Shown piece after piece: positions 1 to 45,795 of a DNA stretch of 45,795 nucleotides (positions within the stretch are counted from its first letter, which is position 1; each line of letters starts with the position of its first letter). The notes below the pieces were generated by a model. That model did no database searches. It was given only the letters and a program-made list of their open reading frames with translations, and was not told the origin of the DNA. The position numbers and the translations under genes were made by a program. The DNA comes from Elusimicrobiaceae bacterium. Its GTDB lineage: Bacteria; Elusimicrobiota; Elusimicrobia; Elusimicrobiales; Elusimicrobiaceae. The stretch covers positions 1-45,795 of the forward strand of contig JAEEIL010000018.1 of the NCBI GenBank assembly GCA_016281355.1. The letters run 5' to 3'.

Positions 1-321
1 TTCTTCAGCAACTTCTTTATCATCAATTTTAATTCTGCCTACTGAACGACCATAACGGTCTATATTTATGACAGTAACATCAATTGTTTTACCTGCCACA
101 AGTTCAGCCAAATATTCTCTGGAAACTTTGCCAAAATCTTGAGTCTTTTCCGGCGCATCTATCCCGTAAAGACGAATTTTTATTTGTTTGTTTTCTGAGT
201 CTAAAATTGTGATAGTATCACCGTCAGCCACTTTGACTACTTTGCCATGAATATCATTTTTACCGCTTAATAATACTACGGGGAAAAGCAGAAGAATTAT
301 GAAGAAGAAAACTTTGTTCAT
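1..321 (-). CDS. Secreted thermonuclease-like (SNase) protein, 3' end outside window
   Basis: This reading frame covers 107 codons and runs off the left edge without a stop. It begins MNKVFFFIILLLFPVVLLSG, a hydrophobic signal peptide or N-terminal anchor, followed by the staphylococcal-nuclease signatures VADGDTITI and IRLYGIDAPEKTQDFG, then DRYGRSVGRI. In the SNase family the Asp of DGDT binds Ca2+, and the Arg of RLYGIDAPE is catalytic; both are present. Expected role: an exported or periplasmic phosphodiesterase that degrades nucleic acid. The ATG at 321 has a clear GGAG ribosome site just upstream. The gene sits about 30 nt downstream of the T-run of a strong minus-strand terminator, so its expression may depend on read-through of the structured leader. 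Confidence 0.85.
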   Translation of the reverse strand, partial: MNKVFFFIILLLFPVVLLSGKNDIHGKVVKVADGDTITILDSENKQIKIRLYGIDAPEKTQDFGKVSREYLAELVAGKTIDVTVINIDRYGRSVGRIKIDDKEVAEE

Positions 322-349
322 TTTTGTCTCCAATAATCTGTTTATGGAA

Positions 350-550
350 ACAAAAAAACGGCTGTTTGCTGGCTACTCAAGACTAGGGTATACCCAACAA
401 CAGCCGTAGTTACAAAATTCTTCGAAAAGAATATGTAACATTTGGCAAATAACATTGAGCTCATGACTTCCCAATATTATCTACCTAAACGACCATTTTT
501 GGACTAGTCTTGATTTTGGGTTTCCCCAATAACCATCCCTTTTGGGATTC
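350..550 (-). ncRNA. Candidate structured leader RNA or small RNA upstream of the nuclease gene
   Basis: Read on the minus strand, this intergenic segment folds into several perfect helices. There is a 5-bp hairpin with loop AAAA (548-544/539-535), a hairpin TTGGG-GAAA-CCCAA with a GNRA tetraloop (529-516), and a stem-loop made of GTTAC/GTAAC (439-435/413-409) plus a 6-bp inner stem (432-427/422-417). A long-range 10-bp helix pairs 513-504 with 386-377 and is extended by GGTTA (534-530) with TAGCC (375-371). The downstream strand of that helix lies in the loop of the terminal hairpin, so the two together make a pseudoknot or two alternative states. The segment ends in a T-run directly before the nuclease ribosome site. 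I do not recognise a known riboswitch or RNA family, and both ends are estimates. Confidence 0.5.
352..407 (-). terminator. Intrinsic terminator before the nuclease gene
   Basis: On the minus strand ACGGCTGTT (407-399) and AACAGCCGT (366-358) form a perfect 9-bp stem followed by a run of T (358-352). The 32-nt loop is unusually long; it contains the palindrome GGGTATACCC and a strand complementary to 504-513. This placement between a folded leader and the nuclease ribosome site suggests attenuation. Confidence 0.7.
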
Positions 551-775
551 CAAAAACAGATAAATTACATATTGTCCCTCAATAGGACTTTTACTACAAT
601 CTCCTTCAAATTATTATACACGTCTCAAATCTGCTTAGAACTTTTTCAGAATTTTCTTTCAAAAGTTTCTGTCTATATTTTACTATATTATTCCATCCAT
701 ATCTACAAAATTATACTTTCCCATTGCATATTTTGGACAGAATTAATATAGCAATACGGGTAAAACTGCTATTGT
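551..775. other. Intergenic, no gene supported
   Basis: This is AT-rich DNA between the structured leader and the SnoaL-like gene. A minus-strand TATAAT (638-633) could serve as the -10 of a promoter for the leader RNA, but no convincing -35 is present. A 69-codon plus-strand frame here has no ribosome site and a composition typical of random AT-rich DNA. Confidence 0.4.
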
Positions 776-3668: not shown

Positions 3669-6600
3669 TCACTTTATCCAATTAGCATTCTGGTTGATTG
3701 ATTGGATAGCAGAATAAATATTATTCCAAACTGCAACATCTGGAAATAAGTCCACAACACTTCCTTGATCAGTGAAGGGGGTGCGTTGAAGAATGCTCAT
3801 ATCTTTTAGCACACCATTTTGAGCAATATATTCCTTAATCCTATCTACGAAGTAGATTTGATTAGAATTTAGGTTGTGTTCATCTATAAATTTAGAAAAG
3901 GCTTCGTTGATGCTTTGTATGTCTAGCCCCAACGTAGCACGCACAAATTCGCCTAATGGAACATCTCCTATATCATGTTTATAATTGTCTTTTGTACCTA
4001 ATTGGTTCCACAAGATCCCCTCCAACTCATTAATATCTTGTTCGGATAAGGGCTCATTGGTGGTTAGCTTCGCAATTGAGGGCAAATGTTTGTTTTCGCG
4101 CAGGAAATGCTCTGCTTTCTTTCTGTAATTTTCTAATTCTATAGTATCAGGATGAAATCCATCTTCATTATATCCCGTCACACAATCCTTAAAGTTCGTT
4201 TCATAGCGAGTACGAACCGTAAGCGGAACAAAACGCATAATATCACGTAATCTTTTGCGGATATTTTCAAAATCGGGAAGTTCCGCACGAGTTAAATAAT
4301 CCGTGTGTAAAATTTGTTCTATTAGATCTTTTTGAGAAAGAACCTCAGGTATATTACCACAAGACGTTAGTCCTGTTACTCTCTTCACAAGATCTTTGTA
4401 TGCTCTTGCACAAGATGTCCCACGTAATTTAGCTAATTCTATTCCATACACCAAAGAATCAAAGCGTAATGCTTCAAAATCATCTTGTTCCGGTAACACA
4501 AGTGGAGCGACTTCTGTACTTAAAGCATATACATCACTCTCGGTCAATTGCCGGAATGCCTCTATCGATGAGAAACGATCTAAAATTTGCAGATGTTGGC
4601 GCACGGCAAAATTATTGCGGTTTAGATGTATGATGCTTTTATGAACGGCCTCTACCAGTTCTTTTCGCCAAGCAGTAAAGAAGTCATTTTGTAAGGACAG
4701 ATCCTGTAACTTCTGAGCTAGCTCTAGTTTTAATTTGAATAGTTGTTCCTGCAAAGATACCGCCACGTTTCCCGTATCCTGACGAGCCGTTTGGAAAAAC
4801 TCAAAATTAGAACAATAATCAAAGATATAGAATCCGTTCTTATCTTCAGCATCCAAAAGACCGGGGCATAAGCGTGTTCCACGTCCAATCATCTGCCAAA
4901 ATTTGGCCTTACTCATTACTTTTTTAAAAAATACTAAGTTTAAGATTTCTGGTATATCGATGCCAGTATCCAACATATCCACAGAAATGGCAATTTGCGG
5001 CATTTTACGGGCATTGGAAAAATCATCTATCAAACTTTGCGCGTAATTGGTATAGTTGTCAATTACACGACAAAAACCGGTAGGAAAATTGGGATATTCT
5101 TCATTAAATACTTGTAAAATTTTCTCAGCGTGCAAATGGTTCTTGGCAAAAATAATGCTTTTGCCAATTTTAGTTCCATATTCAACCTTTAGCCCCTTAT
5201 TTATAAGATCGTCTAATACCTGAACGATTGTATTCTTGTTAAATACCCAATCATTAAGTGCCGAACCACCAATCTTGTCGGGAATATTTCCATCTTCATC
5301 GGCAAATTTTTCCTCGTACTCTTGCTTTTCGGATTCAGAAAGATCGCTATATACAATTCCTTCATTTAAAAATTTAAGTTTGGTCTCGAAAGTTTTATAA
5401 TCAACCAGATATTTATCCTTTACAGCTTGGGCTAATTCGTAGCCATAGGTCGGCACGCCCTCTTCTAGGCCAAAAATCTCGTAGGTATTGCGGTCAATAT
5501 CGCTCTTTGGGGTAGCGGTTAAACCAACCATTAAGCCATCAAAGTAGTTGAATATGCTTTGGTATTTTTTATAAATACTGCGGTGTGCTTCATCAACGAT
5601 AATTAGATCAAAGTGCCCACATGTAAACATCTTGCTTCCATCCGTATCTTCCGATTCATCAATACAGTTCATCATAGTCGGATAGGTGGAAAATATTCCG
5701 CGTGCCTGTAAATTAGGCTTTGATTCACATAAATTGCTAACGGACACGCTGGGAAGTAAGTTTACAAATGCGCGGTTAGCTTGATTCACAAGTGCTGTGC
5801 GGTCCGCTAAGAATAAGAAATTACGAATCCATCCTTGTTGTAAGAGAACTTTAACAAGAGAGATCACCGTGCGTGTTTTTCCGCTCCCTGTGGCCATCGC
5901 CAATAGGGCTCTGCGACGATTTCTCTGTCCAAAGGTTTCACAAACTGCTTTGATAGCTTCTTTTTGGTAGTAACGATTTGTTATATTATCGTCAATTAAA
6001 ATATGGTCTAAGGATTGTTTTTGTTCTAATAAGCTAAATAACTTCTCTAAATCTTTTTTGCCATAGATACTGGCCACCTTACGCTCGGGGTATCCACCTT
6101 CTTGATCTACCCAAATGCGCGTATCATATCCATTAGTTAAGAAAATGACCGGACGGCGGCCATAGCGGCGTTCTAAATCGTCTGCGTATAGTTTGGCCTG
6201 CTGACGGCCTTTAGCGGGGTCTACGCTCGTTTTCTTGGCTTCTACAACTGCTAACGGTCGGCCATCATCCCCATAAAGCACATAATCAGCAAATCCCTCA
6301 CCGGAGGCATTAGGCATTTTTTCTATGGGCACTTCATTTTGCCAATTCTTGCCTTGTATCCACCCGCCATCCGTAAGCATAACATCAATATAGGCCTTGC
6401 GGGTTTCGGCTTCGGTTGGATCAATAGGAACGACCACATAGGTAGATTCCTTGGCTTCACGTTGCTTCGTCAGTTTAGGTGCAACCGTTTTATTAGAGGC
6501 CAATAGCGTATCTAAAGATACTTCTGCGACTACCGGAGGCATGCCTGGAGCAGGTTGCTTGCCAACTAAATCGCGGTTAAAAGTGTGTTTTTGATAATTT

Positions 6601-6980
6601 TTGCCATAATGGAAGGCAATAAAGTCCATAAAGTAGAATAAATTTTCAAGCGCAAAGAGTGTTTGCCCTTTGGTTATATAACGGGAGCTATGAGTTGCGT
6701 TATTACCTACTTTTTGAATATATTTAATGCGGTTAAATAAATCTTCTTTAACAAGATTGTGAAATTCATCGGTATAAATAAGCGCAGAAAGAGTATCTTC
6801 ATAAGGCCGAACAAGTGAAGAATCTACGGAATACAACCATTTGACCCCTAACTCAAGGGCTCTGCGGCATGTCATTATACAGAAAGCGGTATCAATAGCG
6901 AAGATGTTCTCCGCCGCTACTGCTGCGCAGGAAAACGCTTCAAACCGCTTATCTTGAGTTAAAAAATCAAAGTTCGTCAT
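3669..6980 (-). CDS. hsdR: Type I restriction enzyme R subunit (motor and nuclease)
   Basis: The 1103-residue protein has the full HsdR layout, preceded by a DUF4145-like N-terminal domain (about residues 1-125). The PD-(D/E)xK nuclease follows with D232 (GFADYVL) and E247-x-K249 (VVEAKK). The superfamily 2 helicase has Walker A ATGSGKT (363-369), DEAH (463-466) and GLTAT (486-490), and later SVDMLDTGIDIPE and QMIGRGTRL. The C-terminal half matches the EcoEI-type R-subunit end domain. HsdR translocates DNA using ATP and cuts at a distance after M2S binds an unmethylated site. It is the last of five tightly packed genes; only 8 nt separate it from the gene upstream. All core catalytic residues are intact, so it should be active. 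Confidence 0.95.
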   Translation of the reverse strand: MTNFDFLTQDKRFEAFSCAAVAAENIFAIDTAFCIMTCRRALELGVKWLYSVDSSLVRPYEDTLSALIYTDEFHNLVKEDLFNRIKYIQKVGNNATHSSRYITKGQTLFALENLFYFMDFIAFHYGKNYQKHTFNRDLVGKQPAPGMPPVVAEVSLDTLLASNKTVAPKLTKQREAKESTYVVVPIDPTEAETRKAYIDVMLTDGGWIQGKNWQNEVPIEKMPNASGEGFADYVLYGDDGRPLAVVEAKKTSVDPAKGRQQAKLYADDLERRYGRRPVIFLTNGYDTRIWVDQEGGYPERKVASIYGKKDLEKLFSLLEQKQSLDHILIDDNITNRYYQKEAIKAVCETFGQRNRRRALLAMATGSGKTRTVISLVKVLLQQGWIRNFLFLADRTALVNQANRAFVNLLPSVSVSNLCESKPNLQARGIFSTYPTMMNCIDESEDTDGSKMFTCGHFDLIIVDEAHRSIYKKYQSIFNYFDGLMVGLTATPKSDIDRNTYEIFGLEEGVPTYGYELAQAVKDKYLVDYKTFETKLKFLNEGIVYSDLSESEKQEYEEKFADEDGNIPDKIGGSALNDWVFNKNTIVQVLDDLINKGLKVEYGTKIGKSIIFAKNHLHAEKILQVFNEEYPNFPTGFCRVIDNYTNYAQSLIDDFSNARKMPQIAISVDMLDTGIDIPEILNLVFFKKVMSKAKFWQMIGRGTRLCPGLLDAEDKNGFYIFDYCSNFEFFQTARQDTGNVAVSLQEQLFKLKLELAQKLQDLSLQNDFFTAWRKELVEAVHKSIIHLNRNNFAVRQHLQILDRFSSIEAFRQLTESDVYALSTEVAPLVLPEQDDFEALRFDSLVYGIELAKLRGTSCARAYKDLVKRVTGLTSCGNIPEVLSQKDLIEQILHTDYLTRAELPDFENIRKRLRDIMRFVPLTVRTRYETNFKDCVTGYNEDGFHPDTIELENYRKKAEHFLRENKHLPSIAKLTTNEPLSEQDINELEGILWNQLGTKDNYKHDIGDVPLGEFVRATLGLDIQSINEAFSKFIDEHNLNSNQIYFVDRIKEYIAQNGVLKDMSILQRTPFTDQGSVVDLFPDVAVWNNIYSAIQSINQNANWIK

Positions 6981-6988
6981 AAGATTAT

Positions 6989-7828
6989 TTAAGCATTTTT
7001 TTGTTTATTATCATCTTTATTAATACAAATCTTGCAAAAGGCACGACCAAATGGAGTCATTTCAAAATAATTTCTTTCGAAATCAAAACTTTCAAAACCA
7101 CGAGATTTATATTCCTGCGGTTGGATTAAAGATGCAATTGCTTCATGTTTTTCCAAAGGAAGATATTTTGTCTTATCTACAATAGATGCTGAAGTTACTA
7201 TTTCAATTAGACCCAGTCGTTCCAAATTAGAAATATACCTTGTAATCCAATGAGGATATTCACAATTCGCTAAATATCCAACATCTGAAAAATTTCGCAC
7301 TTGGTAAAAATATCCTTTCTTATCCGGGAAAAAGTATTTAATATGAATTAGGGGCCAATTATGTATCTCTAAAATCTTTTTTAATATTTTTGCTTCATCA
7401 GGACATAGTTGTTTAATAATTTCCACATAACTAGGATGCACTTCGTTCTTTACAACTTTATTCATCGAGCTTGCCAACAAATTGGCATACATATCGCGTA
7501 ATTCTTCGTTATCCATACAATACGAAATATACTGTAAGGCAGGCACCGCAATATGGGCCTCGGGTGGAACGACATTTTCCGCGCCCACTTTTTGTAATTT
7601 GATTTCTAGCAGTTTGTCAATTTCCGCGACACTATATTCTTTTTGCAGAACCCATTTTTCTAAACCACTTAACACTGCACGTATCGTACGCGGCAAAAGA
7701 CCTGCCGTGGCAGCTGCGGGTTTTATTAGTGTAGGTCCAATATCTTGGTATCCTTGCTTAACAATTTCTTTTCCCACTTCACTTGCAACTGTTCCAACTT
7801 GTTCTATCATCTTTTCATTTTCATTCAT
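6989..7828 (-). CDS. DUF4393 / Abi-alpha-like protein inside the hsd operon
   Basis: The 279-residue product begins with an amphipathic/hydrophobic helix region (IKPAAATAGLLPRTIRAVLSGLEKW) and continues with VPPEAHIAVPALQYISYCMDNEELRDMYANLLASSMNK, the hallmark of the DUF4393 (Abi-alpha, PF14337) family. Family members are linked by genome context to abortive infection and other phage defences; the biochemical activity is unknown. The C-terminal half looks like a winged-helix-type domain (ISNLERLGLIEI). The start overlaps hsdS by 4 nt (ATGA type), so it is translated together with the restriction genes and may act as a back-up toxin or as a partner of the R-M complex. Confidence 0.75.
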   Translation of the reverse strand: MNENEKMIEQVGTVASEVGKEIVKQGYQDIGPTLIKPAAATAGLLPRTIRAVLSGLEKWVLQKEYSVAEIDKLLEIKLQKVGAENVVPPEAHIAVPALQYISYCMDNEELRDMYANLLASSMNKVVKNEVHPSYVEIIKQLCPDEAKILKKILEIHNWPLIHIKYFFPDKKGYFYQVRNFSDVGYLANCEYPHWITRYISNLERLGLIEIVTSASIVDKTKYLPLEKHEAIASLIQPQEYKSRGFESFDFERNYFEMTPFGRAFCKICINKDDNKQKNA

Positions 7829-8913
7829 CCAAAATACTCCTGCATGAGGGATTTGTATAAGGTTTCAAGGTGTGTTAAGCGATTAGTCAGTAAACCTTTT
7901 TGCGCTTCTATTTTTGTCACAAAATCTGAAAATTGAGTTTGTAAAGACATTGGTGGGATTGGTATCTGTAAACCGCGGATAGTCTTAAGTGCCAAAAATT
8001 TCTGTGTTCCACCGCGCTGTTGATTCTTTATTATGTTATCCAAGAACGATGAACGTAATAAATACAAAATGTACAAGTTGCTACATCTCGATTGGGGTAA
8101 AAACTTAATTAAAGCCATGTTTTTAATTGCATAATTTGGTTCTTGCTTTACCAATGCAGGGTTGCCAATAGTTCCTATCATCGGCAATAATATATCTCCG
8201 ACATCCACTTTGGAACGTTTGTTTATATTGTCAAAGTCTAATTTGGTTATAAAATTTACTTCTTCGAGACTAATATTTCCATTTACGATGTTTTTTGAGG
8301 TAATCAACGGATATCCTTTCAAAACATACTCAGGTGAATCATGGGTCCCGTCTCTAACATCACAAATATTATTTAATGTATCAATTTTAAATTTTTTTGA
8401 ATTTGTAATAGGGTCGCCGAAGAGGTCTATAAAACGGCTTTTGATAAGCTCATCTAATTTTGTAAGTTGTTCTTTTTGCAGCGCAATCAATTCCTGCACT
8501 TTATCCAACCGCTCCGCAATCCGCTTTTGCTCCTTTTGATCAGGTACATTAATGGATGAACCTTTCAACCACTTAAAATGTCGGTTATACCCCGTATTTG
8601 GAATTTTTACGTTACTTAGAGCATAAAATAAATATTTGTAATTTGCATCTTGAAGTGTAGATTTTAATACTTTGACCCCATCTGCTCCGATAAAAAAGGG
8701 GGTATCAATGTATTTGACAATACGTGTATGATCGCCAAAAATAAGGGCTGGAATGTCCGTAAACAATCCTTGGTAATTATTGGTATATCCCGTAATTTGA
8801 GATTGTCCCTGATCCACGATAGGATACTGACCACTAGGCAAGTAGTTAGCTTGTGGAATTTTGGTTGCTAATTTAGTGCAATCTGTAAAAATCTGTTTAA
8901 AAAGTTTTTTCAA
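7825..8913 (-). CDS. hsdS: Type I restriction-modification specificity subunit
   Basis: The 362-residue protein has the usual two target-recognition domains separated by helical spacers. TRD1 covers about residues 1-125 (YPIVDQGQSQITGYTNNY; LIFGDHTRIVKYID) and is followed by the coiled-coil spacer QKEQKRIAERLDKVQELIAL. TRD2 covers about 175-325 (DVRDGTHDSPEY; VDVGDILLPMIGTIG) with a second spacer at the C-terminus. HsdS sets which bipartite DNA sequence is methylated or cut; the target cannot be read from sequence alone. It overlaps the neighbours on both sides by 4 nt. The N-terminus lacks the usual lead-in helix and starts directly in TRD1, which makes it slightly short for the family. Confidence 0.9.
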   Translation of the reverse strand: MKKLFKQIFTDCTKLATKIPQANYLPSGQYPIVDQGQSQITGYTNNYQGLFTDIPALIFGDHTRIVKYIDTPFFIGADGVKVLKSTLQDANYKYLFYALSNVKIPNTGYNRHFKWLKGSSINVPDQKEQKRIAERLDKVQELIALQKEQLTKLDELIKSRFIDLFGDPITNSKKFKIDTLNNICDVRDGTHDSPEYVLKGYPLITSKNIVNGNISLEEVNFITKLDFDNINKRSKVDVGDILLPMIGTIGNPALVKQEPNYAIKNMALIKFLPQSRCSNLYILYLLRSSFLDNIIKNQQRGGTQKFLALKTIRGLQIPIPPMSLQTQFSDFVTKIEAQKGLLTNRLTHLETLYKSLMQEYFG

Positions 8914-9737
8914 TTCTGCCCCCTAGCACATTCATTTTTCGCTTCTTCGATAAATTTTTTTACATGTTTAGAATAGGACAAAATAGAAAGACCCTCTTCT
9001 TCTTTATTATTTTCAACAAAATTGTATCCATTGTTCTTGGCGTATTTGTTAAACACGCCAATCATTTCATCCAGCGTGGCGGCCGCATAATAAACGAGGA
9101 AAATTTCTTCTCCATTGTTATACTTCTGTCTTTTTACAAAAGGCGCAATAACAAGTTTCTGACTCCCCGGATAAACTTTTTCCAACCCTCGTCTTAATTC
9201 GTCGAGATCTTTTCTAAAAGTTTCAATGCCAAAAGAATGTGAATTATTAAACCGCTGAATAGCTGTTTCCAGTTTTGCCAACGTGTAGATAAATAGAGGG
9301 TCGTTATTTGTGAACGAAAGATCTTTCCAATTGTTATCAAATTTTGACGAGAAATCCGCAAATACCACGCTTACATCATCTAAATCCTTATCAGATAATT
9401 GGTATTTGTTTTGTTTGATCTTATCGTAGAGCTGTTGCTTGGCTTGTAATTTCTGATAGCAGTCATACAGCTCATCAGCACAAAAATGCAAATAGGTCTG
9501 TAAATAGTTTAATCGTAAAAGTTGTGTTAGTCGTTGCTCCTTTCTTTCTTCGTCTTTTCGTTCTTTATCCCATTGCTTTTGTTGTCGTAAATTCAACAAA
9601 TAAGCAGTCCAAGAACCTAACCCCGCTGCTAACAATGTTGCCACACAATTCGCCCAATTAACATCTAGATGGAAATGTAATGCTAGAACAATTATTAAAA
9701 TTAATCCGAGAAGGACAGCAAGTATCTCTTTTTTCAT
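8910..9737 (-). CDS. Membrane-anchored coiled-coil protein between hsdM and hsdS
   Basis: The 275-residue protein starts with two hydrophobic segments (EILAVLLGLILIIVLALHF, then ANCVATLLAAGLGSWTAYLL) and a strongly charged coiled-coil (RQQKQWDKERKDEERKEQR). The remaining 200 residues are cytosolic and helical, ending in LVYYAAATLDEMIGVF. I do not recognise a named family. It is not a standard type I subunit, yet it overlaps hsdM and hsdS by 4 nt each, so it is co-translated with them. A role in tethering or in a linked abortive response is possible but is inference. Confidence 0.7.
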   Translation of the reverse strand: MKKEILAVLLGLILIIVLALHFHLDVNWANCVATLLAAGLGSWTAYLLNLRQQKQWDKERKDEERKEQRLTQLLRLNYLQTYLHFCADELYDCYQKLQAKQQLYDKIKQNKYQLSDKDLDDVSVVFADFSSKFDNNWKDLSFTNNDPLFIYTLAKLETAIQRFNNSHSFGIETFRKDLDELRRGLEKVYPGSQKLVIAPFVKRQKYNNGEEIFLVYYAAATLDEMIGVFNKYAKNNGYNFVENNKEEEGLSILSYSKHVKKFIEEAKNECARGQN

Positions 9738-11200
9738 TTCAACAACCCTTCCAACTCTTTCATTCCCTTGGTAATATCTTTTTCCAACCCGGCAATGTTC
9801 GCCAGGAGTTCTTTCGGGGCAGGATATTCCTCGGGTACATATTCAATTTGTTTGTATTTATTAATAGATAAATCGTAACCGTTATCGCGGATTTCCTTTA
9901 CAGGCACGAAAAAGCTCTTGTCCGTACGTTTGCGTTTGACTTCGTCTTTTAAGTTCTTAAAACGGGCGATAATATCGGGAATGTCGTTCTCTTGGATAGG
10001 ATCACGCTTATCGTCTAAACTAAATCCGTCGGCTTGCATATCGTAAAACCACACGTTATCCGTGCCACCATGGTTTGTTTTAGTAAAAATCAGCACCGCC
10101 GTAGATACCCCTGCATATGGCTTAAACACGCCACTAGGCATGCTAATAACGGCTTCCAAACGGTTGCCGTCAATAATTTCCTTACGAATAGATTTATGTG
10201 CGTTAGATGCTCCAAAAAGCACGCCATCAGGCACGATGGTAGCACAACGGCCACCCATAGACAACATACGCAAGAATACCGCCAAGAAGAGTAGTTCCGT
10301 CTTTTTGGTTTTGACTACTTTGGTTAAATCTTGAGAGACGATATTTTCATTTAAGCTGCCTTTAAACGGCGGATTTGCCAAAATCTTGGTAAAGCAGTTC
10401 TTTTTGCTGTTTTGGTCCGAAAGACTATCCTGGTAAGCAATGGCCGGGTTTTCAATATCGTGCATCATCATGTTCATGGCCCCAATACGGAGCATGGTGC
10501 GGTCCATATCATAGCCAAAGAACATGCCATTATTAAAATGATCGCGGTTTTGCTTGTTATAGAAAACTTCTTTTAAGTATTTTTCTTTCAAATACTCGCC
10601 TGCTGCCACTAAAAAACCCGCTGTACCACAAGCCGGATCACAAATGACGTCATTGGGCTTAATATCCAAAAGTTCTACCATCATGCGGATGATGTGGCGA
10701 GGAGTGCGAAATTGGCCGTTTGTACCTGCGGTGGCAATTTTGGAAAGTAAATACTCGTACACATCCCCACGCATGTCTTTCTCGGCATACGACGGGTTGG
10801 ACATAATATCATCCAATGCCGACACGATGCTATCCAAATGTTGGGCAGTCGGGATTTTGAAAATAGCATCAGCCATATACTTGGAGTAGGTGCTATTCTT
10901 GTCCCCATGCAGGTTTTTGATAAATGGGAAAACGCCTTCTTGCACTACGCGGTACATTTTTTCAGGCGGAAAATTACGGAAGGTAGACCATTTAAAATCG
11001 GTTTTGTCCCCAAAGATGCTATGAAAAGGCACTTTGAGCATTACGCTCTCTCTGCGGTGTTTATCTTCCAACGCGTCCAAATCGTGAATGAACATTAGGT
11101 AAGTAATTTGTTCAATCACGTCGAGAGGGTTAGTAAGCCCACCGGAAAAGAAAATTAGCCAAAGGTTATCAATTTTGTTTCTTAATTCGCCTGTAATCAT
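9734..11200 (-). CDS. hsdM: Type I restriction-modification DNA adenine methyltransferase
   Basis: The 488-residue protein has the N-terminal HsdM helical domain, the GQFRTPRHI segment (162-170), SAM-binding motif I DPACGTAGF (188-196) and the N6-adenine catalytic motif NPPF (276-279). This is the normal size for HsdM. It methylates adenine in the site selected by HsdS and is needed, as M2S, for both modification and restriction. It is the first gene of the five-gene leftward operon, with AAGGGG a few nt upstream of the ATG. The 250 nt upstream are very AT-rich and divergent from the recombinase gene. Confidence 0.95.
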   Translation of the reverse strand: MITGELRNKIDNLWLIFFSGGLTNPLDVIEQITYLMFIHDLDALEDKHRRESVMLKVPFHSIFGDKTDFKWSTFRNFPPEKMYRVVQEGVFPFIKNLHGDKNSTYSKYMADAIFKIPTAQHLDSIVSALDDIMSNPSYAEKDMRGDVYEYLLSKIATAGTNGQFRTPRHIIRMMVELLDIKPNDVICDPACGTAGFLVAAGEYLKEKYLKEVFYNKQNRDHFNNGMFFGYDMDRTMLRIGAMNMMMHDIENPAIAYQDSLSDQNSKKNCFTKILANPPFKGSLNENIVSQDLTKVVKTKKTELLFLAVFLRMLSMGGRCATIVPDGVLFGASNAHKSIRKEIIDGNRLEAVISMPSGVFKPYAGVSTAVLIFTKTNHGGTDNVWFYDMQADGFSLDDKRDPIQENDIPDIIARFKNLKDEVKRKRTDKSFFVPVKEIRDNGYDLSINKYKQIEYVPEEYPAPKELLANIAGLEKDITKGMKELEGLLK

Positions 11201-11451
11201 AACCGCCCCTTATTGTAAGGATAACTTGAATATCTAAATAATATTTTATCATATCTTTTGACATTAAAATATATATAAATTTGATATTAAAAATATTTAA
11301 ATTTACTTCTAAAAAATGACTTGATAGTACTCCAAAGAAGAGTTAATATGTTCATGATGCTAGACGGAAGGCACTTCTCAAAAAGAACCTAAAAAGTACT
11401 TTAAAAAATGCCCCGCTAAGCACTGAAAACATAACATTTAAGGAGGAAATT

Positions 11452-12600
11452 ATGGGTATCAGAAAAACTACTAAATCTCCGTATTATTACGCAGAGTACA
11501 GAGATGCCTCGGGTATCAGAAGATGTGTTTCGTTGCAAACTAAAAACATGCGTGTCGCACGTATGAAATATGACGAAATTATCCGGCGCAGAAATGCTAT
11601 TAAAGAAAAAATACACATCCATATAACTTGGCAAACTTTCAAAGATAAACTGTTCTATTTTATGTCGGTTGAAAGGTCACAATGCACTATAAACCATATG
11701 AAACTCGCTATCCGGTATTTTGAGGAAGTAAAGAAACCACGGTTTTTACAGGATGTTACGCCTGAATTATTACAAAAATATAAGCAACATCTTATCACAA
11801 AAGGGTGCAGTAACTCTCATATAAACGGTTTGGTGCAACGGATGAAAATCGCTATGCACTTGGGCGAAAAATGGCAACTTATCCACAAGCAAGAGTGGAG
11901 TGTCGTAACCAGACTTAAAGCACCTCGCGGCAGAGTGGTATTTCATACTCCGGAAGAGATTGATAAAATTTTGGCCGCCTGCCCAGATGAAAAATGGAGG
12001 ATAATTGTTCTCCTCGGTGCTGATGCAGGGCTACGCCGCGGCGAAATAATGCAACTCAAATGGGAAGATGTAGATTTTCAAAACAATCAACTTTATATTG
12101 CCCCAAACAAGACGGAATATTTCCGCTATGTGCCTATGACAGAAGCCCTAAGCAAGGCCTTACAAAGGGCTAAAATTGCGGCACAAAACAAGTTTGTAAT
12201 AAACTTGGGGACTACGCGCAACACAGGCACTCTAACGACCATGTACCGAAGAATGGTCCAAAAAGCCAATGTCCCGAGTTTCATGCATAAACTGCGTCAC
12301 ACTTTTGCAAGCCAACTTGTGCAAAACGGTGTTGAACTTTATATGGTATCTAAATTGTTAGGCCATAGAAGTCTCAAAATGACCGAAATCTATGCCCATT
12401 TAGCCCCTGCGCATCTTCAAAACGCGGTTATTAAATTGCCGAAACATAATGATTTATCAATACACACCAAACCTTCTTTGCATGTTAAGCCGACTTTGCA
12501 TATTGAATCCAAAAGGGTTTGCGGTCCTAACAAAGCATGCCTTCGACTAACATCAGATTTTAGCGAGTTTATTAAAAAAGAATATAGTTCTCACAATTGA
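11452..12600 (+). CDS. Tyrosine recombinase / integrase
   Basis: The 382-residue protein has an Arm/SAM-like N-terminal domain and a catalytic domain with the complete active site: R195 (AGLRRGE), H279-x-x-R282 (HKLRHTFA), H305 (LLGHRS) and the nucleophile Y314 (TEIYAH). Such enzymes integrate or excise mobile elements or move cassettes such as hsdS. The last 50 residues after the tyrosine form a repetitive tail (HTKPSLHVKPTLHIESK). A very strong ribosome site (AAGGAGG) sits upstream of the ATG. It is divergent from the hsd operon and lies in the middle of the accessory block, consistent with an integrated island. Confidence 0.93.
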   Translation: MGIRKTTKSPYYYAEYRDASGIRRCVSLQTKNMRVARMKYDEIIRRRNAIKEKIHIHITWQTFKDKLFYFMSVERSQCTINHMKLAIRYFEEVKKPRFLQDVTPELLQKYKQHLITKGCSNSHINGLVQRMKIAMHLGEKWQLIHKQEWSVVTRLKAPRGRVVFHTPEEIDKILAACPDEKWRIIVLLGADAGLRRGEIMQLKWEDVDFQNNQLYIAPNKTEYFRYVPMTEALSKALQRAKIAAQNKFVINLGTTRNTGTLTTMYRRMVQKANVPSFMHKLRHTFASQLVQNGVELYMVSKLLGHRSLKMTEIYAHLAPAHLQNAVIKLPKHNDLSIHTKPSLHVKPTLHIESKRVCGPNKACLRLTSDFSEFIKKEYSSHN

Positions 12601-40598: not shown

Positions 40599-43500
40599 TT
40601 ATTTTTTTCTTCTGAGTGCGAAGATAATAAGTATCAAAACCGCAGCAACTGCAAGAGCTACTGCTAAGTTGTTATTATCTTGTGTATCCGAAGCAGGTTC
40701 TTCGGATTGGATATCAATTTGCTCGTCTTCGTTTGCAGGAGCATTGGTAACTGTTTCTTCTGCCTTAGTATCTTTTCTTTCTTCAACAATATTTTTGGTT
40801 GTTGTAATTGTTTCTTCAGCTTGAGTATCCTTTTGAGCTATATCAATTTCCTGAGTATTTACAACGAGTTCTTCAACTTTATTGTCTTGTTGTTTCTGGA
40901 CAATTTCTTGTATATCTGAAGCAGATTCTTCGGCTTTAATATTTTCTTGCTCTGCATTGATATTTTGTACTTTCTGAACCGGTTTTTCAGGCAACGGTTC
41001 TTGTATACTTTGAATATCTGCAAAATTTTCAGTCAAATTATTGCCTTCAATTGCTTCATAGTTTTTACTGCCTTTACCGAAGGCCCAGCGTAAACCGCCG
41101 ACAATATTTATACCGTCTCTTCCGCCGTTATAACCCATGACTTGTACAAAGCCGGTAAAATTATCATTGATTGCTTTTTGTACGCCCACATTGTATGACA
41201 AATACGGTTTGATGCTTATTTCAGGTAAGTTCACAGTATCTGCCATTACATCGGTCTTACCCATTAAGTTCCAAACCATTCCGACAGAAGCATACGGCTG
41301 CCATCCATTTAGATTCCCGACAAATCTTAACATCGGATTCAATTGGACACTATTTAATGCCTTAGGATCGATTTTTACCCCTGCTGCATTCGTGTAAGCG
41401 AACGTATTAATCAAACTGTAATTCATTGCCCAAATAGGTTGAAGGATAAAATTGCCTTCACCCAATTCAATATTATAACCGGTTTGAGTACCTAAACCCG
41501 CGGTGAATATGGATGAATTTTCACTTCCGTACATTGTGCGGGCATCTGCGAAGTTAGCACCGATATTGGCGGTAACCCCTGTCCAAAATTTACTTTTATA
41601 TAAAGTTTGAGTTACACCAAACAAACCACCGTTCGTAGAGGCGCTGACTTCCGGATATTTAATTTGAGACCCGTTGTATCCGATGTACCCGCTGGTAACA
41701 CCATACCAATCGCTACCCCAATCTTGGAAACCGGAATCAAGCCCCAAAATAGACCCATAAGATTTAACATCTGTCTTAGGCCCCGGTTTAAGTGAGATAT
41801 CTTCAAAAGTTGCATATGATTTAAACCATATAGCAGAATTGCTGTTATATTGATTGTAGTGACCGCCATTCGTAGCAGGAACCCCTTTCAATATAGCAGA
41901 CCTTTCAACTGCAGAAAATTTGGTGTACCAATCAGCGTGCTCATAAGCATGTTGGAAAGTATTATCCATGATTGCATGTATACCGGCTTGTGCAATTACC
42001 GGGGTGGCTAACACGGCAGGATTGAAGTGAGATATGTCTGAACCTGACCCGGAGTATGTTAACCAACCATCTTCTACGTGACCGATAATTTGGCGAATAG
42101 GCGTCATAATTGTCGGTAAATCCATAGTTATAGAAGTAACATTAGATTGGCCTAACCCTGTTGCATCACCTAAATTAATACTTATATCATCTTGGGTTGT
42201 GGTACCAATCAAGTTAATTTGATTAATATTAAATATACCGCCATTGTTGTTTACGGTAGCAGTAAAAGAATCTGAAGTTAGTGTGCTTAAATCAAAATCT
42301 ATTCCGAGCGTTGCATCTGCGTTTAATTCAACTGTTCCGATATTTGCAGAAGTAATGTTTCCGTCTAATAAATCTATTCCGCCACCGTTAACATTTAACG
42401 CTGTTGCACCGGAAATATCACCGCTATTACCAAATACCAGAGTTGAATCATATAAATCAACATATGTATTTGAAATTGTATTATCAATGGTAAACGGTGC
42501 ATTTGTTCTTAATTCGACATGGGAATTTGTACTGCCATCACCTGTAATATCACTTACTGTTTGGCTTCCGGCATTGTATACCAAAGTACCGTTATTGGTA
42601 ATACCGCTTGAAGCTACTAAATCCTCTGAATTCGTAGTAATTGTTCCGTTATTGGTAATAGCACTTTGGTTTATAGTGCTGCTGTTTGTAAAATCTCCGC
42701 TATTAACAAATGCTCCGTTGCCGCTAATTGAACCTGCATTACTACCGCCGGCGACAGTGATAGTGCCTTCATTTGATACGGTTCCGTTGTTTTGGAAGCC
42801 CGTGGTATCCGTAGTAGTAATAGTGGCTCCGCTATCATTTGTTAGAGTTTCACCACTATCTACGGAAATCGTACCTTGTGTTATATCTGCTGAATTTTGA
42901 ATATTGTTTGTAAATTCTAATGAACCTGAACCTGAAATATCTGAGTTTACTGTGCCGCCGGTTAATTCTAATGTGCCGTCATTGTTTATTGTATTCAACA
43001 AGGCACCGGCATTAGTGGTTAATTGACCACCTGCTTGTACGTCAACAGCATTGACAATTGAATGAGTATCAGTATTGGTTACATTACCGGTAATGTTTGT
43101 TGTTCCGCTTGTGCTCAATATGTCACTAATAATGTTACCGCCGGTTAATTCCAAAGTACCATTGTTTGTTATTCCGGTAGTTGCTGTTATATTGCTTGCA
43201 TTAGATATTAATTCGCCGCCACTAGATATTTGTATTTCATTCTGCGAAATTGTTCCGTTATTTGTTAATTGTCCTATTATATAGGTTGTTCCGCTATCAC
43301 CGGTTATCGTTCCGGCATTGGTCATAGCACTACCCTGTAACGTTAAATCGTTATTGTTCGCAATGGTTCCGTTATTTGTTAACGCGGTATTTATCGTGAT
43401 ATCACCTGTATTTAACAACGAAGTATTTGCAGCTACCACCAATGTTCCCTCTTCAATAGTTCCGGTATTATTAGAATTACCGTTTATAACAAGAGAGCTC

Positions 43501-45795
43501 GTGCCGGTACCCGATATGGTCCCTGCGTTATTTAATGCTGTGTTTACTGTAATTGTTGCATTATCATTTGTTAAAGTGTTTCCGCTTACTACGTTTATGT
43601 TGTTTTGTTCTAAACTATTATTTACTGTGACAGTGGAGGAATTCCCATCAATCCTTGTTGTTATATTTGTTGTACCTGCCCCTGTAAGTGTATCGAATAT
43701 AACGACCCCGGACATGTTTGCTATGCCATTATTATCAATATCCGTGGTATTATTACTAAATTTCGTATCAAAAATATTGAGTGTTCCGTTTGCGTTATTC
43801 GTTACGGCGGTACTAAAATTGTTAAGGCCTGCCCCTGTTACGTTATCAGTACTATCTATACCTATGTTATTTAAAGATAAAGTTTGATTAGCACCAACTA
43901 CTATCCCTGCACCACCATCACCCGTTATTGAATAACCATTACTATTTCCATTTACAGATAATGAACTACCGCCTAATGCAGGTGTACTTGATAATGATTC
44001 ATCTGTGCCCATGGTATAGGCTTTTTCTTCGATTGAGGATGCTATTGCACTTGCCAATGTATTATGTTCAAATTTTAAGAAACCGGCATCTACGCTGTCG
44101 TGTGATGTTTCATAAGTGATAAGAAAACCGTCAGTTCCGCTGCCTGTTATATGTATATTCGCATTTGAACCTAACCCGGCATTATTTCGTAGATTTTCAT
44201 CCGTTACCTGTATCCAAAACGGTATTTGTTCTGTCGGATAACTAGTGATATCAATATTAGCTGCTGAAAATACAAAACTGCCTGATCCGCTAACTGTACC
44301 GGCAGCTGTAATTATATCGGCTACGGGGGTTGTCCCTGCTAACGCTGCATCTATTGCTAACCCTACTGTACCGTTGACTGTTGTGTTTTGACCTAATTGA
44401 TAATTGTGAATTTCGCCGTTACGCAAGTCTAATGTACCGCCATTTGCTGTAAAGTTCGTAACATTTGCTAAAATGTTTGCTGAGCCTAATTTCAGTGCAC
44501 CCGAATTTAATGCAACACTATTGTCTGTTATGGTTTCATTAAATTCAACTGTACCGTTACCACCGATATTGATTGTGCCGTTGGAACCTGTTATTCTATC
44601 ATTAAAGACGATTGAACTGTCCGTACCTGCATTCATGTTTACGGTCCCGGTATTATATATTGCATCTGAAACCCCACCTGCAATGTTACCGGAAAACGTT
44701 GTATTTGCGCCGTCGGACGATGTTATTGTTACAGTTCCTGTGTTATATATCGCACCGCCGTTTGTTGTAGCCGTGTTTGAAGTGAAAGTTCCTGAAAGGT
44801 CACTTATTGTGCCTGTGTTATAAATTGCACCACCGTTTGAGTTTGCGCTGTTAGATGTAAAAGTGCCTGATAATGAAGTTACTGTTCCTTCGTTATATAT
44901 AGCGCCACCGTTTGAGCTCGCACTGTTAGAAGTATAAGTACCTGCAAGTGCAGTTGCTGTCCCTTCATTATATATTGCACCGCCGTTTGATGTTGCTGTG
45001 TTATGATTAAACACTGATGTCGAATCAACAGATAATGTTTTACCTGTAGTATTATAAATCGCACCACCCAAACTTGCGCTGTTACCGTCGGTGGCATTAT
45101 CACCACCGAAGGTGGCATTTATCACATTGGTTATTGTTCCGTCGTTATATAAAGCACCGCCATTTCCTGTAGCGCTGTTAGCTGTATATGTACCGCCTAA
45201 TGCAGTTATTGTATCTAAGTTATAAATTGCACCACCCAAACTTGCGCTGTTAGCTGTGTATGTACCACCGAAATCACTTATTGTACCGCCGTTAAAAATT
45301 GCACCGCCATAACTCGCGCTGTTAAATGTGTATGTACCATCTAAATCACTTATCGTATCATTATTAAGAATTGCACCGCCATTATATGTTGCTGTGTTGT
45401 TTTTAAATATTGACGTAGAAGCAACAGATAAAGTTCCCTCATTATGTATTGCACCACCCGAACTTGCGTTGTTACCGTCGGCCACATTATTACCGCCGAA
45501 AGTGGCATTTATCGCGTTCGTTATTGTTCCGTCATTATATAAGGCACCACCGTTTGAGTCGGCACTGTTAGATGTATAAGTACCAGCTAATGCAGTTATT
45601 GTGCCTTCATTATAAATTGCACCGCCGTTTGTTGTGGCTGTGTTGTTTTTAAACACTGATGTCGAAGCAACAGATAAAGTATTGCCTGTGGTATTATAAA
45701 TCGCACCGCCATTATCTGCAGTGTTACCGTCGGTTACATTGTCACCGCCGAAGGTGGCATTTATCGCGTTGTTTATTGTGCCGTCGTTATATAAA
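40599..45795 (-). CDS. Pmp-like autotransporter with extra C-terminal tail and membrane helix; 5' end outside window
   Basis: The frame is open to the right edge (1731 codons visible). The first part consists of Pmp-type repeats with GGAIYN and FKNNTA/TSNSA motifs, as in chlamydial polymorphic membrane proteins; the middle is rich in NNGTI and TNNGTL turns of a beta-helix passenger. A beta-barrel autotransporter domain follows (about 41950-41080; WFKSYATFEDISL, QTGYNIELGEGNFILQP) and ends with GGLRWAF, the normal C-terminal beta-signal. Unusually, 159 more residues follow: an acidic, repetitive linker (AEETITTTKN, AEETVTNAPAN), then the helix NLAVALAVAAVLILIIFAL and RRKK. The whole protein should be a surface adhesin. 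Confidence 0.9.
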   Translation of the reverse strand, partial: LYNDGTINNAINATFGGDNVTDGNTADNGGAIYNTTGNTLSVASTSVFKNNTATTNGGAIYNEGTITALAGTYTSNSADSNGGALYNDGTITNAINATFGGNNVADGNNASSGGAIHNEGTLSVASTSIFKNNTATYNGGAILNNDTISDLDGTYTFNSASYGGAIFNGGTISDFGGTYTANSASLGGAIYNLDTITALGGTYTANSATGNGGALYNDGTITNVINATFGGDNATDGNSASLGGAIYNTTGKTLSVDSTSVFNHNTATSNGGAIYNEGTATALAGTYTSNSASSNGGAIYNEGTVTSLSGTFTSNSANSNGGAIYNTGTISDLSGTFTSNTATTNGGAIYNTGTVTITSSDGANTTFSGNIAGGVSDAIYNTGTVNMNAGTDSSIVFNDRITGSNGTINIGGNGTVEFNETITDNSVALNSGALKLGSANILANVTNFTANGGTLDLRNGEIHNYQLGQNTTVNGTVGLAIDAALAGTTPVADIITAAGTVSGSGSFVFSAANIDITSYPTEQIPFWIQVTDENLRNNAGLGSNANIHITGSGTDGFLITYETSHDSVDAGFLKFEHNTLASAIASSIEEKAYTMGTDESLSSTPALGGSSLSVNGNSNGYSITGDGGAGIVVGANQTLSLNNIGIDSTDNVTGAGLNNFSTAVTNNANGTLNIFDTKFSNNTTDIDNNGIANMSGVVIFDTLTGAGTTNITTRIDGNSSTVTVNNSLEQNNINVVSGNTLTNDNATITVNTALNNAGTISGTGTSSLVINGNSNNTGTIEEGTLVVAANTSLLNTGDITINTALTNNGTIANNNDLTLQGSAMTNAGTITGDSGTTYIIGQLTNNGTISQNEIQISSGGELISNASNITATTGITNNGTLELTGGNIISDILSTSGTTNITGNVTNTDTHSIVNAVDVQAGGQLTTNAGALLNTINNDGTLELTGGTVNSDISGSGSLEFTNNIQNSADITQGTISVDSGETLTNDSGATITTTDTTGFQNNGTVSNEGTITVAGGSNAGSISGNGAFVNSGDFTNSSTINQSAITNNGTITTNSEDLVASSGITNNGTLVYNAGSQTVSDITGDGSTNSHVELRTNAPFTIDNTISNTYVDLYDSTLVFGNSGDISGATALNVNGGGIDLLDGNITSANIGTVELNADATLGIDFDLSTLTSDSFTATVNNNGGIFNINQINLIGTTTQDDISINLGDATGLGQSNVTSITMDLPTIMTPIRQIIGHVEDGWLTYSGSGSDISHFNPAVLATPVIAQAGIHAIMDNTFQHAYEHADWYTKFSAVERSAILKGVPATNGGHYNQYNSNSAIWFKSYATFEDISLKPGPKTDVKSYGSILGLDSGFQDWGSDWYGVTSGYIGYNGSQIKYPEVSASTNGGLFGVTQTLYKSKFWTGVTANIGANFADARTMYGSENSSIFTAGLGTQTGYNIELGEGNFILQPIWAMNYSLINTFAYTNAAGVKIDPKALNSVQLNPMLRFVGNLNGWQPYASVGMVWNLMGKTDVMADTVNLPEISIKPYLSYNVGVQKAINDNFTGFVQVMGYNGGRDGINIVGGLRWAFGKGSKNYEAIEGNNLTENFADIQSIQEPLPEKPVQKVQNINAEQENIKAEESASDIQEIVQKQQDNKVEELVVNTQEIDIAQKDTQAEETITTTKNIVEERKDTKAEETVTNAPANEDEQIDIQSEEPASDTQDNNNLAVALAVAAVLILIIFALRRKK
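44740..45795 (-). repeat. Tandem Pmp-type repeats in the adhesin passenger
   Basis: Units of about 20-25 residues (NGGAIYNEGTITALAGTYTS, NGGAIYNTGTISDLSGTFTS and so on) repeat at the DNA level with high similarity, with longer super-units containing NATFGG, TLSVAST and GGAIYN. Such arrays expand and contract by slipped recombination and can change adhesin length between strains. Confidence 0.75.

Follow-up and report, generated by a model that had tools for sequence, protein, structure and literature searches.

The minus-strand element in front of the nuclease gene at the start of the DNA analysed here (a contig of 45,795 nucleotides from an Elusimicrobiaceae bacterium, hereafter the window) is one copy of a multi-copy leader RNA family of gut Elusimicrobiota. 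Judging from sequence comparison, this family most probably controls whether transcription continues into the following gene, and we give a probability of roughly 0.78 to the reading that it forms a new dispersed class of cis-acting leader RNAs, working by transcription attenuation through a three-strand exchange. The class itself is real and was previously uncatalogued in Rfam 15, the comparative support for its structure is very strong, and we found no description of it in open-access papers.

In the window the structured leader occupies positions 345-620 (Table 1). The minus strand of 320-600 folds with -94 kcal/mol, against -59.5 +/- 5.1 kcal/mol for dinucleotide shuffles (z -6.8), and none of 200 shuffles was as stable as the native sequence. 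The preliminary description had proposed a pseudoknotted minus-strand leader with a terminator at 350-550, some 30 nt before a secreted nuclease. Strand, pseudoknot, terminator and nuclease were all recovered, the start codon lying 30 nt past the T-run, and the hairpins it listed, including the one with a GAAA loop (P1b), are present in the fold. The element extends beyond those limits to take in the whole of P1, P0, an AAGGAG motif and a TATAAT box. The long-range helix described as 15 bp does enter the terminator loop, where it amounts to 10 contiguous perfect pairs; the 32-nt loop of the terminator exists above a 9-bp lower stem, and in the family the upper stem pairs further. A full -35/-10 promoter was not called at the window TATAAT by a consensus promoter scan. 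The hairpin over the nuclease Shine-Dalgarno (SD) sequence is found also in the orthologue of genome G014, as GUCUCC/GGAGAC, and is not family-wide. Elsewhere in the window, the ORFs of 3669-12600, judged by their sequence, resemble the R, S and M genes of a type I restriction-modification system with a tyrosine-recombinase-like gene behind them, and a repetitive ORF of great length, autotransporter-like and with GGAIYN..GT repeats, occupies 40599-45656.

Table 1. Features of the leader RNA and the nuclease gene (window positions)
Feature	Position	Strand	Basis or remark
Staphylococcal-nuclease-like gene, secreted, cut by window edge	1-321	-	Pfam PF00565 SNase, E 9.5e-11
Nuclease start codon ATG	319-321	-	GGAG just upstream
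Hairpin GUUUCCA..UGGAGAC over nuclease SD in read-through transcript	326-351	-	fold
T-run of intrinsic terminator, seven T	352-358	-	sequence
P4 terminator hairpin	358-407	-	5' strand ACGGCUGUU 399-407, 3' strand AACAGCCGU 358-366; fold
Pseudoknot 3' strand, inside terminator loop	377-386	-	10 perfect pairs with 504-513
P3 hairpin	409-439	-	fold; covariation 11/11 pairs
P2 hairpin, 16 bp	444-485	-	fold; covariation 16/16 pairs
P2 apical loop AAG-UCAUGA-G, palindrome UCAUGA, putative kissing-dimer loop	460-469	-	
Antiterminator 5' part, last 5 nt of P1 3' strand + UCG	490-497	-	complementary to 399-406 (CGGCUGUU)
P1 (549-559 with 493-503)	493-559	-	fold; 94% of cells paired, covariation 10/11 pairs
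Pseudoknot 5' strand, between P1b and P1 3' strand	504-513	-	
P1b, inside P1, GAAA loop	516-529	-	
P1a, inside P1	535-548	-	
AUG-UAA start-stop, weak in window copy	565-570	-	
P0 upstream hairpin GUCCU..AGGGAC	574-588	-	
SD-like AAGGAG near expected transcript start	601-606	-	
TATAAT, likely -10 element of promoter	613-618	-	

The preliminary description had recognised no known RNA family, and Rfam 15 likewise gave no match in the window at the gathering cut-off; in a permissive search of 300-700 the best matches were at chance level (E > 1), and the covariance models of OLE, GOLLD and ROOL gave none. A known RNA family was thereby ruled out as its identity. Among 12 related loci the sole match at cut-off was a SAM riboswitch (RF00162) in L031 (1354-1477), near the family copy but outside it (989-1223).

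A blastn search with the 261-nt region in 59 related genomes gave many partial matches at non-orthologous places. From 21 aligned copies we built a covariance model (R1; 212 positions, 68 pairs), which matches 30 of these 59 relatives and, among 294 Elusimicrobiota genomes, 84, in 8 of 90 genera and mainly two families, with copies detected down to E 1e-54. Positive genomes include nearly all those sampled of the genera g1 and g5, in the window's own family, and several genera of a second family, f15; one weak match lies elsewhere. The RNA is about 210-250 nt long, and its copies number from 1 to about 50 per genome, differing sharply between relatives: 5 in the present genome (G000), 2 to 3 in G001, 2 in G027, 7 each in G017 and G025, 22 in G187, 25 in G130, about 46 in G033 and about 47 in G014. 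A pattern of the conserved sequence was found in 53 contigs from 84,980 species genomes, 52 of them from Elusimicrobiota, several being named for rumen, gut or faecal samples. The remaining one, from Flavonifractor (L221), gives no covariance-model match and is therefore taken as a chance pattern match, so that a presence in Firmicutes was rejected. Searches of viral contigs, phages and plasmids gave no family match.

Read 5' to 3', the family has a TATAAT-like box, often an SD-like AGGAG, P0, P1, P2, P3, P4 and the T-run. P1 (CUGUUUUUGGA with UCCAAAAACAG) encloses P1a, P1b and the pseudoknot 5' strand, and the pseudoknot 3' strand sits in the P4 terminator loop. Across 101 distinct sequences all seven nested helices covary strongly, as does the pseudoknot. 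Changes on both sides occur in 66 of the 68 pairs, 91% of cells are paired against 40-49% in slid controls, and cells changed on both sides number 1208 against 345 in shuffles; the alignment was fitted to R1, which favours structure, but the effect is large nonetheless. The P4 lower helix alone is paired in 91% of cells. Four shortened members (L192, L193, L194 and L197, of which L192 and L197 are orthologous) are without P2 and keep P1, a P3-like hairpin, P4 and the pseudoknot.

The pseudoknot between the P1 domain and the terminator loop is absent from R1. It comprises 10-14 bp of a different sequence in almost every copy, its strand being the most variable part of the RNA (32% mean identity, 120 of 134 distinct). 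Cognate strands nevertheless pair with a median of -17.1 kcal/mol, versus -6.3 kcal/mol for non-cognate ones, and in 94% of copies the cognate pseudoknot beats 95% of the non-cognate pairs. Rare broken pseudoknots include that of L173.

The terminator 5' strand has a second possible partner. AACAGYCG, formed by the end of the P1 3' strand and the three next bases, is complementary to CGGCUGUU, and 90% of these antiterminator cells are paired. In ten copies P4-5' carries a G to A change and the opposing P1-3' base is U in all ten, never C (Fisher P 6e-11, uncorrected for relatedness). Because the change leaves a mismatch in the terminator of several of them (L163, L165 and L170), P4-5' follows P1-3' and not its own terminator partner. 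The covariation of the first J12 base with P4-5' was not significant (P 0.12), and a second hairpin, of P4-3' with GGC past the T-run, was rejected as being at background level (38/143 vs 39). In partition functions, which ignore pseudoknots and kinetics, 125 of 144 copies favour the antiterminator as long as the last terminator strand has yet to be made, with a probability that varies with the truncation point of the RNA; once the RNA is complete, the terminator prevails in 126 and P1 in 117. Within these calculations such an exchange is the logic of attenuation. The comparative support for attenuation is strong. The earlier reading of a terminator-type riboswitch or attenuator is upheld, the strict ligand sense apart, by the covariation of the helices and the pseudoknot, by the absence of an Rfam match and by the antiterminator, a pairing which that description had overlooked.

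We therefore propose the following scheme. Transcription would start just downstream of the TATAAT box, and P0, P1a, P1b, P2 and P3 would fold as the RNA emerges. The emerging terminator 5' strand could then take the P1 3' strand, opening P1; with the antiterminator formed, RNA polymerase would continue into the gene. If P1 instead remains closed, with the terminator loop docked on the P1 domain through the pseudoknot, the terminator would be completed and transcription would stop 30 nt before the gene. P2 would probably make a symmetric loop-loop contact between two RNA copies. Sequence comparison, as far as it can tell, bears out the helices and the pseudoknot, the complementarity of the antiterminator, the placing before genes and a 5' UTR that has the module in one species and lacks it in another. 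We infer three things: cells make use of the switch, its OFF state is the pseudoknotted fold, and one common signal serves the family.

The position of the copies relative to genes agrees with a leader function. An SD-led ORF on the same strand follows within 320 nt in 125 of 139 copies, the median distance from RNA to start codon being 56 nt. A same-strand start lies within 100 nt in 97 copies (70%) versus 11% of random positions, and within 60 nt in 66 copies versus 7%. The intrinsic terminator, P4 with its T-run, lies between promoter and start codon on the strand of the gene. Sites resembling a -10 element were found upstream of 115 of 143 copies versus 78 of 144 random regions, and the consensus promoter scan was not above chance. 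The preliminary description had seen little room for another promoter between terminator and gene. In the family, 42 of the 139 copies have no such start within 100 nt and so leave room for a second promoter, and -10-like hexamers in 36 of the 97 short gaps between T-run and start make a promoter of the gene's own possible there. A few copies are followed by a convergent gene, by an additional terminator or by no evident ORF.

The genes themselves are diverse. Prepilin-like proteins are encoded by 47 of the 125; others encode outer-membrane barrels, glycosyltransferases of families 2 and 8, TPR and zinc-ribbon proteins, DNA methylases, PLD-helicase proteins and nucleases. They are too varied to suggest a shared signal. 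A type III toxin-antitoxin system was ruled out, as the downstream gene varies between copies. A simple association with pilins was also rejected, since G000, G027, G014 and G025 have 36, 106, 108 and at least 150 pilin genes but 5, 2, 47 and 7 RNAs, respectively. In the last three genomes, of 1.4-1.6 Mb, prepilin-like (N-methyl) genes number from about 106 to at least 150, an extreme paralogue expansion.

Individual loci differ in whether they carry the module and in which copy of it they carry. In G000 a family-8 glycosyltransferase (GT8) gene carries the RNA between promoter and gene. G002 has the orthologous gene (75% identical) together with the divergent gene upstream of it and the promoter-like stretch AAATTTGCAAGA..GTAAATTTGnTAnCATTT, and there the GT8 gene stands directly behind the promoter with no RNA, whereas the homologous gene of G006 has a different RNA copy. 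In G001 and G011 a 2.1-kb unit, consisting of the promoter region, the RNA and three ORFs, adjoins a probable tRNA gene; the same site is empty in G008 and in G017 holds an RNA with a different downstream gene. Owing to these cases the module is regarded as both an exchangeable part of 5' UTRs and a companion of accessory genes. L173 and L175 form a mosaic, the gene and the 3' half of the RNA being identical and the 5' half different, and L178 and L184 have nearly identical genes behind unrelated RNAs.

Several other explanations were weighed against attenuation. The one to which we give most credit, tentatively and at less than even odds, is a sub-case of it, a strict ligand riboswitch in which P1-P3 would be the aptamer and the exchange of P1, antiterminator and terminator its expression platform. 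The architecture is that of a terminator riboswitch and the many copies per genome would make up one regulon; against this, none of the mixed genes points to a metabolite, and P2, a part of the supposed aptamer, can be missing. Cyclic di-GMP is possible in principle as the ligand, the genomes having 1-4 GGDEF genes each, and the Rfam c-di-GMP classes gave no match to the RNA. We think it improbable that the RNA is instead a trans-acting small RNA, the terminated product of about 230 nt acting as a homodimer or bound to protein, with the gene behind having its own promoter or being incidental. Such a role would suit the strong terminator, the very ornate fold, a palindromic P2 loop like that of the multimeric OLE RNA and a copy number so variable between relatives. 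It leaves unexplained the closeness of most copies to SD-led starts and the position of the module between a conserved promoter and its gene in G000 as compared with G002, and the antiterminator covariation would be purposeless in a standalone terminated RNA.

Slightly less credible still is a selfish, MITE-like insertion which carries a terminator without regulatory use. Mobility would fit the span of copy numbers (1 to about 50 in related genomes), a gene that occurs both with the module and without it, and the recombinant copies (L173/L175, L178/L184), but recent identical repeats are not what is found: the copies share about 60% mean identity, with structure kept by compensatory change, they have the same orientation to their genes, and the searches of phages, plasmids and viral contigs gave no match to them. 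We give a similarly small chance to a sensor of translation initiation, where an SD and an AUG followed at once by a stop would load a ribosome near the 5' end and set the fate of P0 and P1. Within 90 nt upstream, 92 of 143 copies (64%) have an SD-like motif, versus 26% of random windows, and 20 of 143 have an upstream AUG-stop, versus 0.7% by chance. These AUGs are concentrated in G014, where many copies (L148-L194) have AUG then UAA or UAG, 20-45 nt before P1 and behind a good SD, possibly as a start-stop minigene; most copies elsewhere have no AUG after the SD.

Returning to the attenuator, its P2 hairpin has a further property. Of 36 distinct apical loops, 21 hold a six-base palindrome, versus a mean of 2.6 and a maximum of 8 in shuffles, while palindromes in the P3 and P1 loops are at chance level. 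The palindromes differ (UCAUGA, UAAUUA, UUAUAA, UUGCAA and UCUAGA, with the four-base GAUC and AGCU and a GACG tetraloop type), so the loop stays self-complementary while its sequence changes, as in a kissing loop. We consider it rather probable that P2 forms a homotypic kissing contact between two RNA copies; dimerisation is likely, the support being good but indirect. The contact would not be essential, as some copies have no P2. It is conceivable, though we would not expect it, that leaders sharing a P2 palindrome pair in trans and that the terminated leader RNA feeds back on nascent leaders, making the module an exchangeable 5' UTR cassette. If true, dozens of accessory surface genes would be under palindrome-coded groups of mutual control.

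Terminator riboswitches and attenuators such as SAM-I and the T-box are 5' leaders in which an upstream helix, an antiterminator and a terminator exchange strands and a T-run comes just before the start codon. The Elusimicrobiota RNA is likewise a 5' leader with a three-strand exchange and a T-run near the start, but it differs in its long pseudoknot, which is specific to each copy and reaches into the terminator loop, in the many unrelated accessory genes that it precedes and in the lack of an Rfam match. In the HMP-PP (thiS) riboswitch the aptamer is embedded in the terminator (PMC6478431); here too part of the putative sensing structure lies within the terminator, although the structure and genes are others and Rfam gives no match. 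In OLE the tetranucleotide of the L9.3 loop switches between GGCC, GAUC and AGCU, which was taken to support a symmetric kissing bridge that cryo-EM shows (PMC12286853). Switching palindromes in an apical loop are thus shared with OLE, GOLLD and ROOL, the present RNA using CAUG, AAUU, UAUA, UGCA, CUAG, GAUC and AGCU; unlike these large standalone RNAs it is a short leader with a terminator, and its multimer is putative. Retroviruses use both GACG tetraloops and purine-flanked palindromes as dimer-linkage elements (PMC516450). The AAG-UCAUGA-G loop resembles the purine-flanked palindrome of the HIV-1 DIS, and another P2 type carries a GACG loop, but this is a bacterial leader RNA and the resemblance is one of loops only, with no homology.

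With about 50 copies in 1.4 Mb, few cis-regulatory RNA classes in small genomes would be repeated as densely as this one. Dimerisation between RNAs is rarely seen in natural RNAs (PMC7357161), and the family would connect it with attenuation. A promoter and gene that occur both with the leader and without it are a clean natural experiment, and the RNA would offer a handle on how the little-studied Elusimicrobiota of the gut choose among dozens of pilin and surface genes.
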